The notes under the pieces were generated by a model, which ran no database searches, was not told where the DNA came from, and was given only the letters and a program-made list of their open reading frames with translations. Source: a virus. From it: DNA of 28,466 nucleotides. Location: the IMG/VR virus record IMGVR_UViG_3300044591_001147, positions 1-28,466 of that record; one strand, 5' to 3'. A program made the position numbers and the translations under genes. The number at the start of each line of letters is the position of its first letter. Position 1 is the first letter of the stretch. This document shows positions 10,428 through 25,566 of the stretch, piece after piece.

Positions 10428-10611
10428 CAGCCACCCAGACCTTCCCGTGCTCGTTTAACAACTCGAGGCGGACGTAATCGCTCACGCGGTCCTTCGCTTC
10501 AAGGAGCCCCAGGTCGCCGCTGAAAATCCGATGCATGATGATCTTCCCGGGGCGGTTCGCCGAGTGGCGCACGGTCACATCGATGTCCGTCTCGATCGGT
10601 CCCTCGTTCAC
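10363..10611 (-). CDS. Hypothetical protein of the minus-strand island (82 aa, GTG start)
   Basis: On the minus strand it begins with GTG at 10611, overlapping the nuclease stop as GTGA. A good Shine-Dalgarno (GGAGG, 4 bases upstream, read on the minus strand) supports this start. The product looks like a real small soluble beta/alpha protein, with VRHSANRPGKIIMHRIFSG early and DYVRLELLNEHGKVWVA later. No family is recognised. It is translationally coupled to the VRR-NUC gene and so may work with it. Its final 65 bp overlap the convergent forward gene ending at 10427. A longer in-frame extension exists upstream but would be antisense to the nuclease and lacks a better start. Confidence 0.6.
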   Translation of the reverse strand: MNEGPIETDIDVTVRHSANRPGKIIMHRIFSGDLGLLEAKDRVSDYVRLELLNEHGKVWVAASPRTVDWRATLEPEAALREP

Positions 10612-10973
10612 TTTTCCTCCGGTGATCTGTCTGCCCGCCAGGCCCGAAGCTCGCGCAGGGCCTCGTCCGCGCTGTGAACCAGCAGGTAGCACCCGCCGAG
10701 CGCTTCGGTCTTTGCCTGGAAGTCTTTCTGTTCGGGCGACTGACGCCCGCCAGGGACCTTGCACTCGACCTCCAGGCGCACCCCGACAGGAAGCCCGATA
10801 CCGAGGTCCAGCCGCACGATGCCCGAGATGTCGCCCTGGCCCGGGATGCCGAACCGGATGGCCCGGCGAGCCCCGGGTGGCTTCGCGACGCCACAATTGT
10901 TCCGCCAGATCCAGACGCCGGGCTCATCGTACAGCGCCCGGATGACCTCGTTCACGATCGCGCTCTCGCCCAT
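10608..10973 (-). CDS. VRR-NUC family nuclease (121 aa)
   Basis: A stand-alone VRR-NUC domain of the PD-(D/E)XK nuclease superfamily. Visible motifs are WRNNCGVA (23-30, the conserved N/G region), FGIPGQGDISG (41-51, catalytic D48), RLEVECK (66-72, the E-x-K pair E70/K72), and QSPEQKDF (78-85), which resembles the SPEQ motif of the family. The start at 10973 is chosen for its Shine-Dalgarno (AGGAG about 8 bases upstream on the minus strand) and because the nuclease core begins soon after; a longer frame to 11081 has no better site. Known phage members cut branched or flapped DNA, for example Holliday junctions. A recombination or concatemer-resolution role is plausible. It is transcribed opposite to every neighbour except the coupled 82-aa gene. 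Confidence 0.88.
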   Translation of the reverse strand: MGESAIVNEVIRALYDEPGVWIWRNNCGVAKPPGARRAIRFGIPGQGDISGIVRLDLGIGLPVGVRLEVECKVPGGRQSPEQKDFQAKTEALGGCYLLVHSADEALRELRAWRADRSPEEK

Positions 10974-11013
10974 GGCCGGATCTCCTGCACGAATAATTAA
11001 CCTGACATGCTCG

Positions 11014-11041
11014 TTGACTCCCGAGAAACCCGGGGTAGAGT
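11014..11041 (+). promoter_or_regulatory. Candidate sigma70-type promoter for the replication genes
   Basis: TTGACT (11014-11019), a 16-bp spacer and TAGAGT (11036-11041) lie in the 126-bp gap between the divergent nuclease gene and the replication block. The -35 is good and the -10 moderate. The gap also has two GACATG motifs (from 11003 and 11043; the second is the palindrome GACATGTC), which could be operator half-sites. This is a match by eye, not a tested promoter. Confidence 0.45.
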
Positions 11042-11099
11042 GGACATGTCGGCACCCCGACACAAGCATACCCGACGACAAGACCCGAGGAGGTCAAGC

Positions 11100-11519
11100 A
11101 TGTCATTCGAGTTCCAGCCTGAGAAGGCCGCACCCAGCGACCGCAACAACGTCAAGATCCCCGACCGCACCTACACGGCCGGGTTCACCGGCTACCGGAT
11201 CTATCAGCGCCCGAACCGTGACACCGGCGTGATGGAGGACAGGATCGCGTGGACCTTTAACGTCATCACGAAGAAGGGCGAGTTCGAGATCCCCGGATTC
11301 ACCAGCACGAAGTGGGGCAACGCTGAGAAGCCGTCAGTCGCCCGCGAGTGGGTCGCGGCCATGATGAACCTTCCGGTCTCGAGCCCCGACCTGGTTCGCA
11401 AGATTGATGACCTCGTGGGCCGGCAGGTCCAGGTCCTCACGATGACCATCGGCGAGGGGGAGAGCGCCCGCAGCATCATCAAGGCCGTCCTCCCGAACGC
11501 GGACGAGCTGGACTTCTAG
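11100..11519 (+). CDS. Hypothetical replication-region protein (139 aa)
   Basis: ATG at 11100 is chosen because of the strong GAGGAGGTCAAGC leader directly before it. Longer in-frame starts lie across the divergent promoter region. The protein is mixed alpha/beta, with AGFTGYRIYQRPNRDTGVME followed by IAWTFNVITKKGEFEIPGF. It is reminiscent of small phage single-strand-binding or DUF669-type proteins that sit beside replication genes, but I cannot confirm that family. It is the first gene of the rightward replication block and is followed by a hairpin terminator-like structure, so it may be expressed at a higher level than the genes downstream. Confidence 0.7.
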   Translation: MSFEFQPEKAAPSDRNNVKIPDRTYTAGFTGYRIYQRPNRDTGVMEDRIAWTFNVITKKGEFEIPGFTSTKWGNAEKPSVAREWVAAMMNLPVSSPDLVRKIDDLVGRQVQVLTMTIGEGESARSIIKAVLPNADELDF

Positions 11520-11635: not shown

Positions 11636-11863
11636 ATGTGGGATCCGGAATTCATGGGCATCATCTGGGAGTTCGCGGCAAAGGACCCGACGTGGATGTC
11701 TTATCAGCGCGAGCGGCTTGAGCTGACACTCGAGCACCTGGAGTACGGTCGCGGAAAGGTCCTCGAGGCAGCCTACGACGCGGCCACCCGTCATGGTCGG
11801 TTGACGGTGCGTGACGAGGACGGAAGTGTGATCGTTGCGACGGAGGTTCGGGCATGGCGGTAG
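11636..11863 (+). CDS. Hypothetical protein (75 aa)
   Basis: The start is chosen at ATG 11636, right after the GAGGAGGTCGAG leader shared with many genes here; an upstream in-frame ATG at 11594 lacks a comparable site. The sequence opens MWDPEFMGIIWEFAAKDPTW. It continues with a helical central part and a short C-terminal strand region (RLTVRDEDGSVIVATEVRAW). No family is recognised. Its last 10 bases overlap the start of the replication initiator gene, suggesting coupled translation. Confidence 0.65.
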   Translation: MWDPEFMGIIWEFAAKDPTWMSYQRERLELTLEHLEYGRGKVLEAAYDAATRHGRLTVRDEDGSVIVATEVRAWR

Positions 11864-12510
11864 GTAAGGGCCTGGATAGGCTGGCTCACCTCGGCCTCCA
11901 CGTCGAGCTGCTCAATATGGCTGATCAGAACATGGTCGTTGGGCTGTCCGACAAGCAGATCGCGGCAAGGCTCGGCATCGGCAAGAACAAGATCGGCCCG
12001 ATGATCGATTGGTTGCATGAGCAAAAGATGGTTTATCGCTTCGGCGGAAATCACGGTCAAGGCACGAAGCAAGGCTATCGGATTATAAAGGTCTACCAGA
12101 TCCCCGTGAAAGGGACGACCGTCCCTGTGAAAGGGAAACCCGTCCCTGTGAAAGGGACAGGCTCAGGTTATGAAATCCCCGTGAAAGGGACACATCTTAT
12201 CTCTCATGATCCCATGGTCTTACATGAGAAAAAGAAAGAAGAAGATGATGATCGTCGTCGTCGTCATCATCAGTTCTTCGAAGATAACATCGAGCTGAAG
12301 GTCATCTGGGGGCATTATCGACACAACCCAAGTACGAACCCGCACCGCGACAAGGACGAGACGATCGAACTGTGGCCAAATGTGGTCGAGAAGGTCGGGC
12401 TTCCGGCGATCTGCGAATACTTCGAGCTGTTCAACGAGTCGAACACGAGCCACAAGACACCTCGCTTCGTCGAGCACCTGCACCGCTTGATGAACAAGAT
12501 CGTGCTATGA
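11854..12510 (+). CDS. Replication initiator-like protein with intragenic origin (218 aa)
   Basis: The N-terminal ~75 residues look like a winged-helix DNA-binding domain (LSDKQIAARLGIGKNKIGPMIDWLHEQKMVYRF). The middle (about 83-112) is a low-complexity peptide with four (I/V)PVKG(T/K) repeats, followed by an acidic/basic run EEDDDRRRRHH. A separate C-terminal domain from about 134 ends in LHRLMNKIVL and may contact the helicase. The peptide repeats exist because the DNA holds four iterons plus an A+T-rich stretch and an inverted repeat, the layout of lambda ori inside gene O. With a primase-helicase gene 38 bp downstream, the best call is an O-like origin-binding initiator. The start overlaps the upstream gene; ATG 11854 is preceded by GGAGG at 11841-11845. 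Confidence 0.75.
   Translation: MAVGKGLDRLAHLGLHVELLNMADQNMVVGLSDKQIAARLGIGKNKIGPMIDWLHEQKMVYRFGGNHGQGTKQGYRIIKVYQIPVKGTTVPVKGKPVPVKGTGSGYEIPVKGTHLISHDPMVLHEKKKEEDDDRRRRHHQFFEDNIELKVIWGHYRHNPSTNPHRDKDETIELWPNVVEKVGLPAICEYFELFNESNTSHKTPRFVEHLHRLMNKIVL
12101..12190. repeat. Four origin iterons, consensus TCCC(C/T)GTGAAAGGGA
   Basis: Copies of a 15-bp repeat lie at 12101-12115, 12122-12136, 12143-12157 and 12176-12190. Copies 1 and 4 read TCCCCGTGAAAGGGA; copies 2 and 3 read TCCCTGTGAAAGGGA. Starts are 21, 21 and 33 bp apart, close to whole helical turns, so bound proteins would line up on one face. Each copy has TCCC/GGGA arms, so it is a partial palindrome. Lambda iterons, as I recall them, have similar TCCCT...AGGGA arms. 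They probably bind the protein encoded by the same gene. Confidence 0.85.
12191..12279. other. Probable replication origin: A+T-rich unwinding stretch plus inverted repeat
   Basis: Right after the iterons, 12191-12240 is about 64% A+T in a genome that is mostly G+C, and its end is purine-rich. An imperfect inverted repeat follows: GAAGAAGATGATGA (12238-12251) pairs with TCATCATC-AG-TTCTTC (12264-12279) across a 12-base TCG-repeat loop. Iterons, A+T-rich DNA and a palindrome in this order match lambda ori. The function is inferred. Confidence 0.65.
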
Positions 12511-12548: not shown

Positions 12549-14405
12549 ATGCTCAACCCCCCCACGATGACCGAGATCCGGTCGTTTTGCGATCGCTACA
12601 TCCCCGGCTGGACCGAGGTCCAGGGCTCGAAGGGGCCAGAGGCTGCGGCACGGTGCCCGTTCTGCGGGTCGGGTGACCGGAAGGGCCGGACCGCCGAGCG
12701 CACGTTCCGCGTCAACCTCGCGGACGGCAGGTTCATCTGCAACCGGCAGGACTCGTGCGGGCAGCGCGGCGGGTGGCTCACCCTGGTCGAGCGGCTGTCC
12801 GGCGCACGGCCGATCGCCGAGCCGCGGGAGCTGGTCTCGGTCCAGACCGCGCGCAAGGTCTACCGCCTCCCGCCCGAGGAAGCCGCGGCCAGCACGAGCA
12901 GCAACCACCTCGCATACCTCGAGCGTCGCGGCATCTCGGTGGAGACGGCCCGGGCGTGGCGGGTCGGCTTCCGTGACGGCTGCATCCTCTGGCCCGTTTA
13001 CGACGACGCGGGCACGCTCATCGACGTCAAGCGTCGCACGCTCTCCGGCAAGGGATTCTTCCACGAGGTGGACGCCCGCCCGGGCCTCGTGGGAATGCAC
13101 CTGATCCCGGACGACGCGGACAGCCTGCTCATCGTCGAGGGCGAGATCGACGCGATGAGCGCGACGGAGTACGGCATCCGGTCGGTCGTGAGCATGCCGG
13201 GCGGCACGGGTGACCTGCGGTGGGTCGAGGAGTGGCTCCCGTGGCTCGACCGGTTCGCTGAGATCGTCATCGGCCTGGACGACGACGACGCCGGAAGGCG
13301 ATGCGCCGTCGAGCTGGCGAAGCGCATCGGACACTGGCGCACCGCGGTCGCGAAGTGGCCGATGAAGGACCTGAACGAGTGCCTCGTGGCCGGGGTCTCT
13401 CGGTCGGACATCTACCACGCGCTGACGAACGCCACGGTGACCACCCCTGACGCCCTCGTGAGCATCCTCGACTGCGAGGACGCGATCGTGGCAGCGTTCC
13501 TGGACGAGGGCAAGCTCGTCGGCACGTCCTCGGGGCTGCGCGGCCTCGACGGGATCCTGCGAGGCTTCCGCGCCGGTGAGCTGACGGTCTGGACCGGAGC
13601 GAACGGAAGCGGCAAGTCGACCGTCCTCGGGCAGGTGGCGAGTAACATCATCGTGCACGCCGGCGAGCGCGTCTGCATCGCGACGCTCGAGCTTCCGGTC
13701 CCGAGGTACAGCCGCTGGCTGGTCATGCAGACGGCCGGCAGCCACCAGCTCGACGAGCCGATGGTCCGCGAGACAATCCGCCAGCTCGGCGAGGGGCTGT
13801 GGTTCCTCGACCACGTCGGCACCCTCGAGGTGGATCGCCTGCTGGAGGTGTGGACCTACGCCCGCCGCAGGTACGACGTTCGGCATTTCGTCGTGGACAG
13901 CATGATGAGGCTGCGGATCGGGGTGGACGACTACACCGCGCAGAAGACCACCGTGGACCGCCTGGCTGCGTTCGCGAGGACCTACGACGCGCACGTCCAC
14001 CTGGTCGCGCACCCGAGGAAGGGCGCATCCGACCACCAGGGCGTCGATAAGGCCGCGATCAAGGGCACGAGCGAGATCACGGACCTCGCCCACAACGTCA
14101 TCGTTGTCACCCGCCACGAGGCTCACAGCACGATCGAGGTGCTCAAGCATCGAGAGCACGGCACCCTGGGGAAGGTCGCCGTCATCGTGAACCCGGACAG
14201 TAAACTCGTCCTCGAGACGACCATACAGGAGGAGATAAAGGATGTCGGAAAAATCGAGAAGGCCATCATTGAGGCCCGGAAGAAGCAGTCTGTTCAGTCC
14301 GGAGGCGCTGGCGGAGGTGCTCCCACCGGACGAGACGCCGCAGCAGGTCGCGATGAAAGAGAAACCTTTGTCGACGAACTCGACCCCGAAGACAACACCC
14401 CCTGA
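12549..14405 (+). CDS. Bifunctional primase-helicase (T7 gp4/Twinkle-like, 618 aa)
   Basis: Makes RNA primers and unwinds DNA at the fork. Domains in order: a zinc-binding domain with C36, C39, C64 and C70; a TOPRIM primase core with LLIVEGEIDA (E197) and IGLDDDDAG (D244-D247); and a RecA/DnaB-type helicase with Walker A GANGSGKST (350-358), catalytic-type Glu in ATLEL (E382), Walker B HFVVDS (D450) and VHLVAHPRKG. The C-terminus is a Gly/Ala-rich then acidic tail, as in T7 gp4, where it contacts the polymerase. ATG follows AGGAGATCGAG. No polymerase is visible, so the host replicase is the likely partner. The last 164 bp overlap another well-initiated gene in a different frame. Confidence 0.93.
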   Translation: MLNPPTMTEIRSFCDRYIPGWTEVQGSKGPEAAARCPFCGSGDRKGRTAERTFRVNLADGRFICNRQDSCGQRGGWLTLVERLSGARPIAEPRELVSVQTARKVYRLPPEEAAASTSSNHLAYLERRGISVETARAWRVGFRDGCILWPVYDDAGTLIDVKRRTLSGKGFFHEVDARPGLVGMHLIPDDADSLLIVEGEIDAMSATEYGIRSVVSMPGGTGDLRWVEEWLPWLDRFAEIVIGLDDDDAGRRCAVELAKRIGHWRTAVAKWPMKDLNECLVAGVSRSDIYHALTNATVTTPDALVSILDCEDAIVAAFLDEGKLVGTSSGLRGLDGILRGFRAGELTVWTGANGSGKSTVLGQVASNIIVHAGERVCIATLELPVPRYSRWLVMQTAGSHQLDEPMVRETIRQLGEGLWFLDHVGTLEVDRLLEVWTYARRRYDVRHFVVDSMMRLRIGVDDYTAQKTTVDRLAAFARTYDAHVHLVAHPRKGASDHQGVDKAAIKGTSEITDLAHNVIVVTRHEAHSTIEVLKHREHGTLGKVAVIVNPDSKLVLETTIQEEIKDVGKIEKAIIEARKKQSVQSGGAGGGAPTGRDAAAGRDERETFVDELDPEDNTP

Positions 14406-17300: not shown

Positions 17301-17636
17301 ATGACGACGAAGAACCCCCCCGACGAGAAGGCCATGCACGCAGCCGCTGACGCCTACCGGGCCGGCGCGAGCCTCCGAGAGATCGCCGATAGCCTGATCG
17401 AGATGGGCTACACGGGTACCCGAGGCGGCACCCTGCACCCTTACGCCGTCGCCCTGGAGCTGCGGAAGCTCGGCGTGAAGATCCGCCCGAACGCCCGACC
17501 CGAGGAGTTCATCGCGCTCGTGTTGCGGATGACCCGCGCCGGGGCGAAGCAGGTCGAGATCGCCGAGAAGCTCGGGTGTTCTCAGCCTACCGTGAGCCTC
17601 ATCGTGCGGACCTTGCGAGCGGAGGGCAAGCTGTGA
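17301..17636 (+). CDS. Double helix-turn-helix DNA-binding protein (111 aa)
   Basis: Two HTH-like units can be read: about 16-56 (YRAGASLREIADSL, then TLHPYAVALELRKLGV) and about 67-107 (VLRMTRAGAKQVEIAEKLGC, then SQPTVSLIVRTLRAEGKL). The second is an excellent match to the classic pattern with a turn at KLGCSQPT. The start is ATG 17301, next to the previous stop. Its own stop overlaps the GTG of the next, larger HTH protein, so the two are probably co-translated. Likely role: transcriptional regulator or site-specific DNA-binding protein. Confidence 0.75.
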   Translation: MTTKNPPDEKAMHAAADAYRAGASLREIADSLIEMGYTGTRGGTLHPYAVALELRKLGVKIRPNARPEEFIALVLRMTRAGAKQVEIAEKLGCSQPTVSLIVRTLRAEGKL

Positions 17637-18319
17637 AGACGAAGCAACAGATCCGGGATCAGATCCGGGAGTATCTCGAGCAGGGACGGACGCAGGAGCA
17701 GATCGCCGGTGAACTCGGGACGACTCAACCGGCCATCTCGCAGATGATCACCCGAATGGAGCAGGCCGGAGAGATCGCCCCGCGCAGGCGCGTGCGCGAC
17801 CCGAAGTTCGTGTCGGCCGTCGTGAAGCTCTACAACGGCGGCGCCACCGTCGCTGAGATCAGTGTGGCTCTCGGGCGGAACCTGTCGACCTGCTACGCCG
17901 TCATCCGGGAGCTGGTCACGGTGGGTGCGCTCAATGGCAAGGGCTCGGGCCGTCGCTGCCAGCCCGGGCACGAGGACGCCGTGCAAACCGTGCTGGAGAT
18001 GACGAAGTCCGGCGCGACCATCGCCGAGATCGCCGCCGCGATCAATCGGTCGGATAACTGGGTCGTGCGGATGCGGGCGACGCTCCGGGCGCAGGGCAGG
18101 CTCGCGAAGGACCCGGGACGCCGCGGGTTCGGTCGAATTGACTGGGAGCCCAAGATCCCGCAGATCCGGCGGATGATCGAGGCAGGGCACGCGGTCGAGG
18201 CCATCTCGTTCGCGATCGGCGTCAACGTCGAGAGCCTGCGCCGGAAGCTCCGGGAGCTGGGCATCCAGAGCAACCGGCAGAAGGCCCTGGCGCGGTACCG
18301 TGGCGGGAGGTCAATCTGA
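17633..18319 (+). CDS. Tandem four-unit helix-turn-helix protein (228 aa)
   Basis: It starts at GTG 17633 overlapping the preceding TGA. Four HTH-like units run through the whole chain: about 11-46 (EQIAGELGTTQPAISQMITR), 60-100 (AEISVALGRNLSTCYAVIRE), 114-156 (AEIAAAINRSDNWVVRMRAT) and 176-212 (EAISFAIGVNVESLRRKLRE). Each carries the GAT/GRT-x-x-(E)I-A pattern before the turn. There is no catalytic domain, so this is not a recombinase or transposase as written. It would read an extended, repeated DNA site or bridge several sites. With the neighbouring two-HTH protein it makes six units in a row, which looks like repeat duplication. I know of no named family with exactly this build. Confidence 0.75.
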   Translation: MKTKQQIRDQIREYLEQGRTQEQIAGELGTTQPAISQMITRMEQAGEIAPRRRVRDPKFVSAVVKLYNGGATVAEISVALGRNLSTCYAVIRELVTVGALNGKGSGRRCQPGHEDAVQTVLEMTKSGATIAEIAAAINRSDNWVVRMRATLRAQGRLAKDPGRRGFGRIDWEPKIPQIRRMIEAGHAVEAISFAIGVNVESLRRKLRELGIQSNRQKALARYRGGRSI

Positions 18320-18486: not shown

Positions 18487-18653
18487 CCAGGCAGGAGCAG
18501 GCGCAGCTCGCGATGTGGGAGCTGATCGAGGATATCGTGGCTGATTGGGCAGCTCGTGACCGCCAGGAGATCTACGCGATCCGGAAGGTCCGGATGGCGG
18601 AGCTTGAACGGCTCATCGACGAGGCGAGCGACTGGACTGAGGGGGGCGTGTGA
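18483..18653 (+). CDS. Small helical protein, paralogue B (56 aa)
   Basis: The start is ATG 18483 with AGGAG upstream, overlapping the previous stop (ATGA). The first ~25 residues parallel the preceding 55-aa protein (MTRQE, then a helix with W/L-x-E-x-I-x-D/T), and then they diverge: DRQEIYAIRKVRMAELERLI here. Likely a gene duplicated in place and now divergent. Function unknown. Confidence 0.6.
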   Translation: MTRQEQAQLAMWELIEDIVADWAARDRQEIYAIRKVRMAELERLIDEASDWTEGGV

Positions 18654-18880
18654 TGGAGAACGAAGCTTACAAGTGGCTAAGCGAGTGGGTCAGTGAAGGT
18701 TGCAGGTGGGTTGATGGAGATGATGTACATAAAGATTATATTTACCCGTTAACTTGTTTTCGATTTAAATCTTATAACGAAAGTCTATATGGACAGTATT
18801 TAGGGTTTTACGAAGGCATGTGTCAACTCCTGGCTGACGCCGAATCCGGACGCAAAATGCGGGAGGGTGACAATGGATAA
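18653..18880 (+). CDS. Stand-alone AYKWLS-domain protein (75 aa)
   Basis: ATG 18653 has GGGGGG six bases upstream; GTG 18650 is an alternative one codon earlier. It starts MENEAYKWLSEWVSEGCRWV and ends with a MCQLLADAESGRKMREG motif that recurs in the next gene's N-terminus. The middle is Tyr/Phe-rich and strikingly A+T-rich in DNA (about 18720-18800), unlike its neighbours, a sign of separate origin. No known family is recognised. Confidence 0.68.
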   Translation: MENEAYKWLSEWVSEGCRWVDGDDVHKDYIYPLTCFRFKSYNESLYGQYLGFYEGMCQLLADAESGRKMREGDNG

Positions 18881-19424
18881 TCAAGCATACAAGTGGCTGA
18901 GTCAGTGGGTCAAAGATGGCGGAAAATCATTCGGATATGAGTCTGACGGATGCGGATCATATTATGTCACGCTTGGTTATCAGCGATCATCGTGCATAGA
19001 TTTTAATGACTTAAAAATGGACATTAGCCAACTTCTCGAAGACGCTGAGGCAGGCAGAAAGCTGCGAGACGGTGCTGCGACGGACGTGTGGTCGACGATT
19101 GACGCGGGTTTCAGCGCCTACCAAGAGCAATCGCAGCGGACGGCCCGGACGGAGATGCTCTATCGTGACCGCCTGGCCGTCGCGGCCCTCGGGCTCGTGG
19201 GCGAGGCTGCCGAGGTCTCGGAGGCGGTCAAGAAACACATCGGCCACGGCCACGACCTGGACACGCTGGCCATGCTCGAGGAGCTAGGGGACGTGCTATG
19301 GTACATCGCGGAGCTGACGAGCCTGCTCGGTTCCGAGATGGGCGTGGTGGCAGGGATGAACGTGGCGAAGCTCCGGGCGCGATACCCGGACGGGTTCAGC
19401 GAGGAGGCAAGCCGTGAGCGGTGA
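18873..19424 (+). CDS. MazG-type nucleotide pyrophosphohydrolase fused to AYKWLS domain (183 aa)
   Basis: Residues 1-67 repeat the preceding protein (NQAYKWLSQWVKDG and ISQLLEDAEAGRKLRDG). From about 72 the chain is a MazG-like all-alpha NTP pyrophosphatase. The metal-binding signature is seen as E111-x2-E114 (VGEAAEVSEAVKK) and E137-x2-D140 (LEELGDVLWYIAEL). MazG-type enzymes hydrolyse (d)NTPs, and some phage members act on alarmones or altered nucleotides. ATG 18873 is chosen for GGGAGG six bases upstream. The first third is A+T-rich and the MazG part GC-rich, so the fusion looks recent. Confidence 0.82.
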   Translation: MDNQAYKWLSQWVKDGGKSFGYESDGCGSYYVTLGYQRSSCIDFNDLKMDISQLLEDAEAGRKLRDGAATDVWSTIDAGFSAYQEQSQRTARTEMLYRDRLAVAALGLVGEAAEVSEAVKKHIGHGHDLDTLAMLEELGDVLWYIAELTSLLGSEMGVVAGMNVAKLRARYPDGFSEEASRER

Positions 19425-20527: not shown

Positions 20528-20557
20528 TTGACACCTTGATACGGGGCGTCGTAGTAT
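20528..20557 (+). promoter_or_regulatory. Promoter module copy 1
   Basis: TTGACA (20528-20533), an 18-bp spacer and TAGTAT (20552-20557), followed by a leader CATCGAGAGCGCACCAC and GAAGGAGACACCGAG before ATG 20601. Nearly the same sequence recurs at 21221-21293. It sits directly after a strong terminator. Confidence 0.75.
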
Positions 20558-20600
20558 TAATTCATCGAGAGCGCACCACCCACCCGAAGGAGACACCGAG

Positions 20601-21220: not shown

Positions 21221-21250
21221 TTGACACCTTGATACGTCCCCGAGTAGTAT
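21221..21250 (+). promoter_or_regulatory. Promoter module copy 2
   Basis: TTGACA (21221-21226), 18-bp spacer, TAGTAT (21245-21250), then CATCGAGAGCGCACCACTCAC and GAAGGAGACACCGAG. It matches copy 1 over the promoter and leader, with changes mainly in the middle of the spacer. Confidence 0.75.
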
Positions 21251-21293
21251 TAATACATCGAGAGCGCACCACTCACACGAAGGAGACACCGAG

Positions 21294-23427: not shown

Positions 23428-25566
23428 ATGTCTGCGAAGGGAGCGATGATGGGATTCCGTGACTGGATGCGCCGGGCGCTGGGCGTCGAGGTGAAGGCCA
23501 GCGCGACCACGCAGGCGCTCGTACGCAACCTGCCGGACGCGGTATGGACGCCCCGGGATTACCAGGCGCTGAGCCGTGAAGGCTACGCGACGAACCCGTG
23601 GGTCTACGCCTGTGTGACCGAGATCGCCCGAGGCATCGCCGGCATTCCCTGGAGGCTCTACCAGGGCCGCGGCGAGGCCGCCCGTGAACTGGACAGCCAC
23701 CCGCTTCTCGACCTTCTTCGCCGCCCGAACCCCGAGCAGGGATACGGGGCATGGGCGGAGCAGCTCGTCTCGTTCCTGCTCATCTCCGGGAACAGCTACG
23801 TCGAGGCTGTCGGTCCCGACCGTGGCGCCCCGCGAGAGCTTTACATCCTGCGGCCCGACCGGATGCGCGTGCTTCCCGACGCCCAGAACCGGGTGCGCGG
23901 CTATCGCTACGAGGTCTCGACGGCTCGCATCGACCTCGACACTGAGCACTGCCTTCACATCCGGCTCTTCTCGCCGCTGGATGACTGGTACGGGATGAGC
24001 CCGCTCGAGGCCGCGGCCCGTGCGATCGACCAGGACAATGAGCTGGCCCGCTACGAAGTCCGGCTCCTCCAGAACCAGGCCATGCCCGGGATGGTCCTCC
24101 GCTCGCAAGACGCCCTCGACGACAGGCAGTACGACAGGCTCAAGCAACAGATCCAGCAGCTCTACCAGGGCACGGACAATGTCGGGCGCCCGATGATCCT
24201 CGACGGTGGCCTCGAGGCGCAACCGCTGAGCTTCTCGCCGCAGGACATGAGCATGGACAAGTCTATGCTGTGGTCCGCTCAACGGATCTGCGCGGCGTTT
24301 GGGGTGCCGGGCGAGCTGGTCGGTCTGATGTCTGCCACCTACCAGAACCGCCGCGAGGCCAGGAAGGCACTCTACACCGAGACCATCCTCCCGCTCCTCG
24401 ACCGCATCGCCGACGACCTGAACAACTGGCTCGCCCCGCAGTTCGGTCAGGGGCTCACGCTGTCCTACGACCGGGACAGCATCGAGGCGCTCCAGGAGGA
24501 CCGCGAGGCCCTGTTCAATCAGATCCAGAAGGCCGATTGGCTGACGGTCAACGAGCAGCGCGTAATGGCCGGCTACGAGGAGCGCGAGGAAGGCGATGTC
24601 ATCCTCGCGTGGAAGGCGAAGGCTCCTCTTCAAGATCTCTCGGCGCAGGCGCAGGCGGAGGCTCAGGCCGCCGCGGTGCAGGCCGAGATGCCACCGCAAG
24701 CCCCGACGACCGGCCAGGCATCCGCTCCGGCTCCCGAGGTAAAGGCAGCACCCGACCCGCTCGAGCAGCTGAACGAGGCCATGGACCGTCGCCGGGAATA
24801 CTGGGTCGGGATCTACGAGCCTCGCGTCCGAAAGGCTCTCCGCGCCGGTCTTGGCGAGATCGCCGATCAGGTGGAGGGCGGCAACGCAAACCCTAGCTTC
24901 GGCTCGCAGGACGCTCTCACGCCCGTCCTGACGAGCCTGTACGATCGTGTCGGGCGTGACAGCGCGAGCCTCGTGGGCAAGGCCATGGCGCATCGCAAGA
25001 AGGCTCTCGGAATCCGCGAGACGAAGGGCGTGTTTCAGAACGTCCGATCGCTGTGGGATTCCTGGGTCAAGTCCGCCGTGGCCTCGCAGGTGGCTCTCGT
25101 GAGCACGTCCACTCGTGACGAGATCCGCGGCATCATCCAGGACGGGCTCGACCTGGCGCTGGACTACAAGACCATCGCGCGGCAGATCCGCGGGCTCTAC
25201 GAGGTCACGGACGTCGGGGCGCTCCCGGGCGATTACGCGACGAACTATCAGTACCGCCCGATGCTAATCGCCCGCACCGAGGTCGGGGTGGCCTCGTCGA
25301 AGGGCGCGAACCTCGAGGCCGTGAGCCTCAACCAGGACGTGCAGCCCCTCGGCATCGAGCTGCGGAAGCGGTGGGTCGCGCTGGTGGACAGCCGCAGCCG
25401 TCCCGACCATGCGGCGCTGAACGGGACGATCGTCCCGCTCGCCGACCCATACGACGTGGCCGGGACGCAGATGATGCACCCGCACGACCCGGCAGGCGGG
25501 GCCGCGAACGTCTGCAACTGCCGCTGCATGGAAGTCTACGTCGAAGTCCCGATCGGAGGATCGTAA
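23428..25566 (+). CDS. Portal protein fused to minor head (SPP1 gp7/Mu F-like) domain (712 aa)
   Basis: Residues ~1-400 are an HK97-type portal: ATNPWVYACVTEIARGIAGI, then FLLISGNSYVEAVG, then YGMSPLEAAARAI, FGVPGELVGL and YQNRREARKALY. Residues ~404-450 are an Ala/Gln/Pro-rich linker. From ~450 the chain is a minor head protein with SRPDHAALNGT near 656 and a Cys-rich end NVCNCRCMEV, as in SPP1 gp7/Mu F proteins. These are usually two genes; here one frame covers both. ATG 23449 has a better Shine-Dalgarno (AAGGGAG) than 23428, so the true start may be seven codons later. Confidence 0.9.
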   Translation: MSAKGAMMGFRDWMRRALGVEVKASATTQALVRNLPDAVWTPRDYQALSREGYATNPWVYACVTEIARGIAGIPWRLYQGRGEAARELDSHPLLDLLRRPNPEQGYGAWAEQLVSFLLISGNSYVEAVGPDRGAPRELYILRPDRMRVLPDAQNRVRGYRYEVSTARIDLDTEHCLHIRLFSPLDDWYGMSPLEAAARAIDQDNELARYEVRLLQNQAMPGMVLRSQDALDDRQYDRLKQQIQQLYQGTDNVGRPMILDGGLEAQPLSFSPQDMSMDKSMLWSAQRICAAFGVPGELVGLMSATYQNRREARKALYTETILPLLDRIADDLNNWLAPQFGQGLTLSYDRDSIEALQEDREALFNQIQKADWLTVNEQRVMAGYEEREEGDVILAWKAKAPLQDLSAQAQAEAQAAAVQAEMPPQAPTTGQASAPAPEVKAAPDPLEQLNEAMDRRREYWVGIYEPRVRKALRAGLGEIADQVEGGNANPSFGSQDALTPVLTSLYDRVGRDSASLVGKAMAHRKKALGIRETKGVFQNVRSLWDSWVKSAVASQVALVSTSTRDEIRGIIQDGLDLALDYKTIARQIRGLYEVTDVGALPGDYATNYQYRPMLIARTEVGVASSKGANLEAVSLNQDVQPLGIELRKRWVALVDSRSRPDHAALNGTIVPLADPYDVAGTQMMHPHDPAGGAANVCNCRCMEVYVEVPIGGS

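Follow-up and report, generated by a model that had tools for sequence, protein, structure and literature searches.

The window, by which we mean the whole stretch of DNA analyzed, is the entire IMG/VR record IMGVR_UViG_3300044591_001147 and is 28,466 bases long. It carries an initiator gene with four short repeats (iterons) inside it and, directly after it, a gene for a primase-helicase. An earlier note, made from the letters of the sequence, had described a lambda-style replication origin at this place with the repeats enclosed in a single open frame, and that frame was found to encode 218 amino acids. The features of the locus are as follows.

11854-12510, + strand: initiator ORF, 218 aa (ORF list, weak O-like profiles, hhalign, AlphaFold2 model)
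Initiator residues ~1-80: predicted winged-helix N-terminal domain (AlphaFold2 model, profile comparison)
Initiator residues ~82-126: predicted flexible linker encoded by the repeats, disordered in the model (AlphaFold2 model)
Initiator residues ~130-218: predicted helical C-terminal domain (AlphaFold2 model)
12101-12115, + strand: iteron 1, TCCCCGTGAAAGGGA (repeat search, pattern match, symmetry)
12122-12136, + strand: iteron 2, TCCCTGTGAAAGGGA (repeat search, pattern match, symmetry)
12143-12157, + strand: iteron 3, TCCCTGTGAAAGGGA (repeat search, pattern match, symmetry)
12176-12190, + strand: iteron 4, TCCCCGTGAAAGGGA, 33 bp past iteron 3 (repeat search, pattern match, symmetry; the 33-bp gap is also in the relative L005)
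12192-12242, no strand: A+T-rich stretch, presumed duplex-unwinding element (65% A+T; start nearly identical in L005)
~12238-12279, no strand: imperfect inverted repeat or hairpin, codon run GAT-CGT-CAT (fold compared with synonymous shuffles)
12549-14405, + strand: primase-helicase, 618 aa (phrog_239, E=2.6e-104; Toprim_2; DnaB_C/AAA_25)

The primase-helicase matched the Toprim_2 profile at 1.3e-11, over the cutoff, and the DnaB_C profile at 7.1e-06, slightly under it. A gene for a loader of the lambda P type was not found beside the initiator, where the next gene is the primase-helicase itself. An endonuclease- or Holliday-junction-resolvase-like ORF (10608-11081; phrog_93, E=2.3e-11) lies on the - strand, opposite to the replication genes.

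Several features elsewhere in the window are recorded here. An overlapping pair of ORFs with helix-turn-helix units occupies 17301-18319, and many helix-turn-helix profiles match along 17576-18319, as if it held multiple tandem units. The adjoining ORFs at 18650-18880 and 18867-19424 are alike at their starts (EAYKWLSEWVSEGC and QAYKWLSQWVKDGG); the second runs into a MazG domain, and the surroundings of this pair are the most A+T-rich and G-skewed part of the window. A single 712-aa ORF (23428-25566) is a fusion of a portal protein with a head-morphogenesis domain. Finally, two translated stretches on the - strand, at ~20540-20600 and ~21230-21290, are alike as read from the ORF list only (SPSGGWCALDELIL and SPSCEWCALDVLIL), which suggests a repeated DNA element before two small ORFs.

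The initiator protein

The initiator matched PHROG profiles of the O-like or replication-initiation kind weakly (phrog_270, E=0.0016; phrog_345, E=0.043). In the Pfam search no family passed, Phage_rep_O (PF04492) and HTH_36 included, and KORA alone appeared, at E=0.15; the initiators of loci L110 and L084 match Phage_rep_O at 1.9e-34 and 4e-37. AlphaFold2 arranged residues 2-80 as helix-strand-helix-helix-strand-strand, in agreement with the winged helix that the earlier note had proposed, in a model that is poor overall (mean pLDDT of 59, with ~75-80 at residues 11-60 and 52-62 at residues 61-80). When the N-terminal domain was compared by hhalign with ten O-like winged helices, the probability was 69 and the E value 4e-5 over 59 columns. 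With the same low-confidence model, Foldseek returned generic winged helices only from the PDB, the closest folds being MarR-like regulators, and from viral models several replication initiators together with a replication protein O of an E. coli phage (E values of 1e-4 to 1e-3). By sequence, then, the initiator is not a recognized member of the lambda O family, and it is predicted to work as lambda O does.

Relatives of this protein were few. A tblastn search gave no match in phage records or plasmids, and no match was confirmed when the whole initiator was searched against viral contigs or when the N-terminal alignment was used to search bacterial and archaeal genomes. The N-terminal domain alone found a single contig, IMGVR_UViG_3300044949_001206 (L005), which is the sole close relative found to carry the initiator gene. 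An exact 15-mer scan of viral contigs returned 40 stretches, one of which (L030) is on the same contig as L005; because the others had one match each, we took them as chance.

Iterons, A+T-rich stretch and hairpin

The 15-mer TCCCYGTGAAAGGGA has four exact matches in the initiator ORF, spaced 21, 21, and 33 bp, just as the earlier note had claimed. At up to two mismatches, there was no further copy in the 28,466-base record. At up to three mismatches, there were seven matches (two of them the same iterons read on the other strand) against 1.1 expected, and none of 100 dinucleotide shuffles of the record reached seven. All four iterons have TCCC and GGGA half-sites (TCCC-N7-GGGA), and 10 to 14 of 17 positions are symmetric. 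On the + strand of the window, this pattern occurs just at the four iterons, where about one site is expected. The window thus contains the dyad-symmetric, phased, in-gene repeats expected of a lambda-type origin, where phasing is by ~20 to 24 bp or by a few helical turns. The consensus DnaA-box pattern had no match in the window.

Right after the last iteron, as in a lambda-type origin, comes a stretch that is 65% A+T over 12192-12242 (about 64% had been claimed) and 60% over 12192-12279, against a window mean of 36%. Melting energy, a check that the earlier note had proposed, was taken as nearest-neighbor energy, by which this region ranks third among the least stable 60-bp regions of the window. 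The leucine codon TTA is nearly absent from the other genes counted (~0% of their Leu codons) and is nevertheless present in the A+T stretch of both the window and L005. In the survey described below, the 60 bp after the array were richer in A+T than the gene mean for 16 of 16 arrays.

The 14-bp inverted repeat described earlier is present, with its length understated: the actual stem spans ~12238-12279. It was equaled by 1 of 40 synonymous shuffles, a significance that is modest because the hairpin arises from a run of codons, GAT3-CGT4-CAT2. At the same place, L005 has two strong hairpins (equaled by 0 of 40 synonymous shuffles), and the sequence of the window hairpin was not found there. 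Downstream hairpins with 0 or 1 of 40 synonymous shuffles as good accompany 6 of 16 surveyed arrays (the window, L005, L063, L084, L113, and L117), a proportion that is suggestive only. Given the absence of its sequence from L005, we rejected the hairpin as a conserved element of the origin. GC skew, which had also been put forward as a check, was weak and was not used as origin evidence: the cumulative minimum falls at 11225, near the iterons and not on them, and third-position skew shows no clear switch in the window.

Selection on DNA or on peptide

Because the iterons encode (I/V)PVKG, the effect of peptide repetition had to be set aside. The iteron copies resemble one another more closely than the repeated peptide demands: when the codons of this protein were resampled 5,000 times by codon usage, 3 resamplings equaled them. 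Among the other genes counted, AAA makes up 8% of Lys codons and GGG 22% of Gly codons, yet each is found in four of four iterons. The probability that GTG-AAA-GGG would be chosen independently in all four is ~2e-9, a figure to be read with the nonindependence of copies made by tandem duplication.

Comparison with L005 is, at the sequence level, a stronger test of DNA against peptide than these codon statistics within the window. The two phages share a primase-helicase that is 94% identical. L005 has three iterons, spaced 21 and 33 bp, which is one 21-bp unit fewer than in the window. Across the three aligned iterons, the core bases number 45 and the sole difference is at the Y position, whereas in the winged-helix part 31 of 243 bases differ; 72 residues are unchanged there, and 18 synonymous changes fall among them. 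For the A+T stretch, the count is 1 synonymous change over 13 unchanged residues, and the first part of the stretch is nearly identical. Iterons and A+T stretch are therefore kept almost to the letter, at rare synonymous codons, in a conservation that rests on two sequences because one close relative only carries the gene.

These data bear on whether selection acts on the protein instead, in which case a recent tandem duplication would have multiplied the linker peptide IPVKGT and the identity of the DNA would be a by-product. A linker that is disordered in the AlphaFold2 model would suit this explanation, as would copy numbers that differ by one 21-bp unit between the two phages. We nevertheless consider it very improbable, since the wobble bases of rare codons (AAA and GGG) are held in every copy in the window and in L005, against the 18 synonymous changes of the winged-helix part. 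Moreover, the peptide does not explain the dyad symmetry, and the repeats of other phages encode quite different peptides.

Relation to known origins and proposed mechanism

We surveyed the gene upstream of such primase-helicases in 57 loci, 45 of them nonredundant, and counted arrays from at least three repeats. In-gene arrays were present in 20 of the 45 nonredundant upstream genes, 18 of them beyond synonymous shuffles, compared with 1 of 68 control ORFs from the same loci (0 of 68 beyond shuffling). Their position was mostly ~0.3 to 0.6 of the gene length. In-gene arrays upstream of this primase-helicase family are common. When viral contigs were scanned for pairs of TCCC-N7-GGGA sites at a 21-bp spacing, with any inner bases allowed, 17 loci were returned, the contig of L005 among them. 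By eye, at least five further loci appear to have the sites in an initiator-like ORF (L139, L140, L144, L146, and L147; the ORF of L146 is displayed on the strand opposite to its listed coordinates), so that the search for conserved iteron spacing with changed sequence that had been proposed turned out favorably. For L139 and L140, the start of the following gene looks, by eye, like that of a DnaB helicase.

The anatomy of the window resembles that of known systems. Like the lambda O gene with ori-lambda, it has four dyad-symmetric iterons in midgene with an A+T-rich stretch next to them (PMC7466680). The lambda iteron is an imperfect inverted repeat with footprints on its G-tracks (PMC7466680). 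The two differ in iteron core, in protein sequence, and in the supply of helicase, for which lambda uses the loader P and host DnaB and the window has a phage primase-helicase. The O-like protein of Pseudomonas phage vB_Pae_U7 is likewise a winged-helix initiator with four in-gene repeats (spaced 20 to 23 bp); these adjoin the same helicase family, its product being named DNA primase/helicase, whereas the repeat sequence, GGGTAGTAGC, is unrelated to that of the window.

The earlier note had regarded the pairing with a T7-type primase-helicase as a notable mix. This pairing already exists in Salmonella phage ES18 (gp59, ori, and gp61) and in epsilon34, g341c, Oslo, and others. In the ES18 record, the annotation likens gp59 to lambda gpO, places a rep_origin "similar to lambda ori" within gene 59, and calls gp61 a "putative primase/helicase; similar to phage T7 gene 4." L110, whose DNA is 98% identical to ES18, contains a sequence almost the same as ori-lambda (94% identical to lambda over 136 bases) and then a primase-helicase. 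Like ES18, epsilon34, g341c, Oslo, and SEN22, the window has a probable lambda-type origin within an initiator gene, followed by a primase-helicase, which in the ES18 group lies ~100 bp past the O-like gene and is annotated as similar to T7 gene 4. Unlike the window, with no Pfam match, the ES18-type O has the Phage_rep_O domain (PF04492, tested on L110), and its iterons are longer and of the TCCC-N9-GGGA type, compared with 15-bp TCCC-N7-GGGA. Some lambdoid phages encode a bifunctional primase/helicase (PMC8508860). On the strength of this report and of the ES18 annotation, the combination of initiator and primase-helicase is already known. The window has the ES18-type module, in which an initiator gene holding the origin immediately precedes a toprim/RecA-like primase-helicase, and its initiator and origin belong to the class that ES18 already represents.

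Taken together, the anatomy, the codon-level conservation in L005, and the phage survey give good support to the lambda-style origin inside the initiator gene. We put at roughly 88% the probability that the origin is of the lambda type, in which, as we infer, the initiator binds the iterons that its gene contains, opening of the A+T stretch follows, and the primase-helicase is recruited. What is observed are the repeats, the A+T stretch, the gene order, the conservation at codons, and the recurrence of the anatomy in other phages. In the proposed mechanism, the initiator would bind each TCCC-N7-GGGA iteron via its N-terminal winged helix, probably as a dimer, and the four complexes, about two and three helical turns apart, would wrap the DNA. 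The adjoining A+T-rich stretch would then melt, and the C-terminal domain would bring the phage's own primase-helicase onto the exposed strands, dispensing with a separate helicase loader.

A winged-helix protein that has dyad sites is frequently a repressor, and the repeats could alternatively be operators for autoregulation of the replication operon, at which the protein would repress or pause transcription within its own gene. The MarR-like regulators among the closest PDB folds fit such a role, which is not exclusive with that of an origin. As an explanation of the repeats, however, we find it very unlikely: the sites are in midgene, away from a promoter position, the A+T stretch and the primase-helicase adjoin them, and the anatomy is the same as that of annotated lambda-type origins.

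By eye, the C-terminal halves of the initiator in the window (12243-12510) and L005 (3240-3587) look unrelated, and neither had a significant match among the surveyed initiators. The switch comes just past the A+T stretch; winged helix, iterons, A+T stretch, and primase-helicase are shared. Lambda and ES18 are likewise alike through the origin and differ from shortly past it. This pattern suggests a possible recombination boundary after the origin. It is conceivable, although we rather doubt it, that phages of this group recognize the origin with one cassette and recruit the helicase with another, the two being separable. Under this reading, the same helicase would be recruited by C-terminal domains of two different kinds, or else recruitment would fall to another part than the C-terminal half. 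The window and L005 together offer a small experiment of nature on where in such an initiator the helicase-recruiting function resides. For the known class of in-gene origins, whose arrays often accompany a phage primase-helicase, the window adds a high-G+C environmental phage with an iteron sequence of its own.
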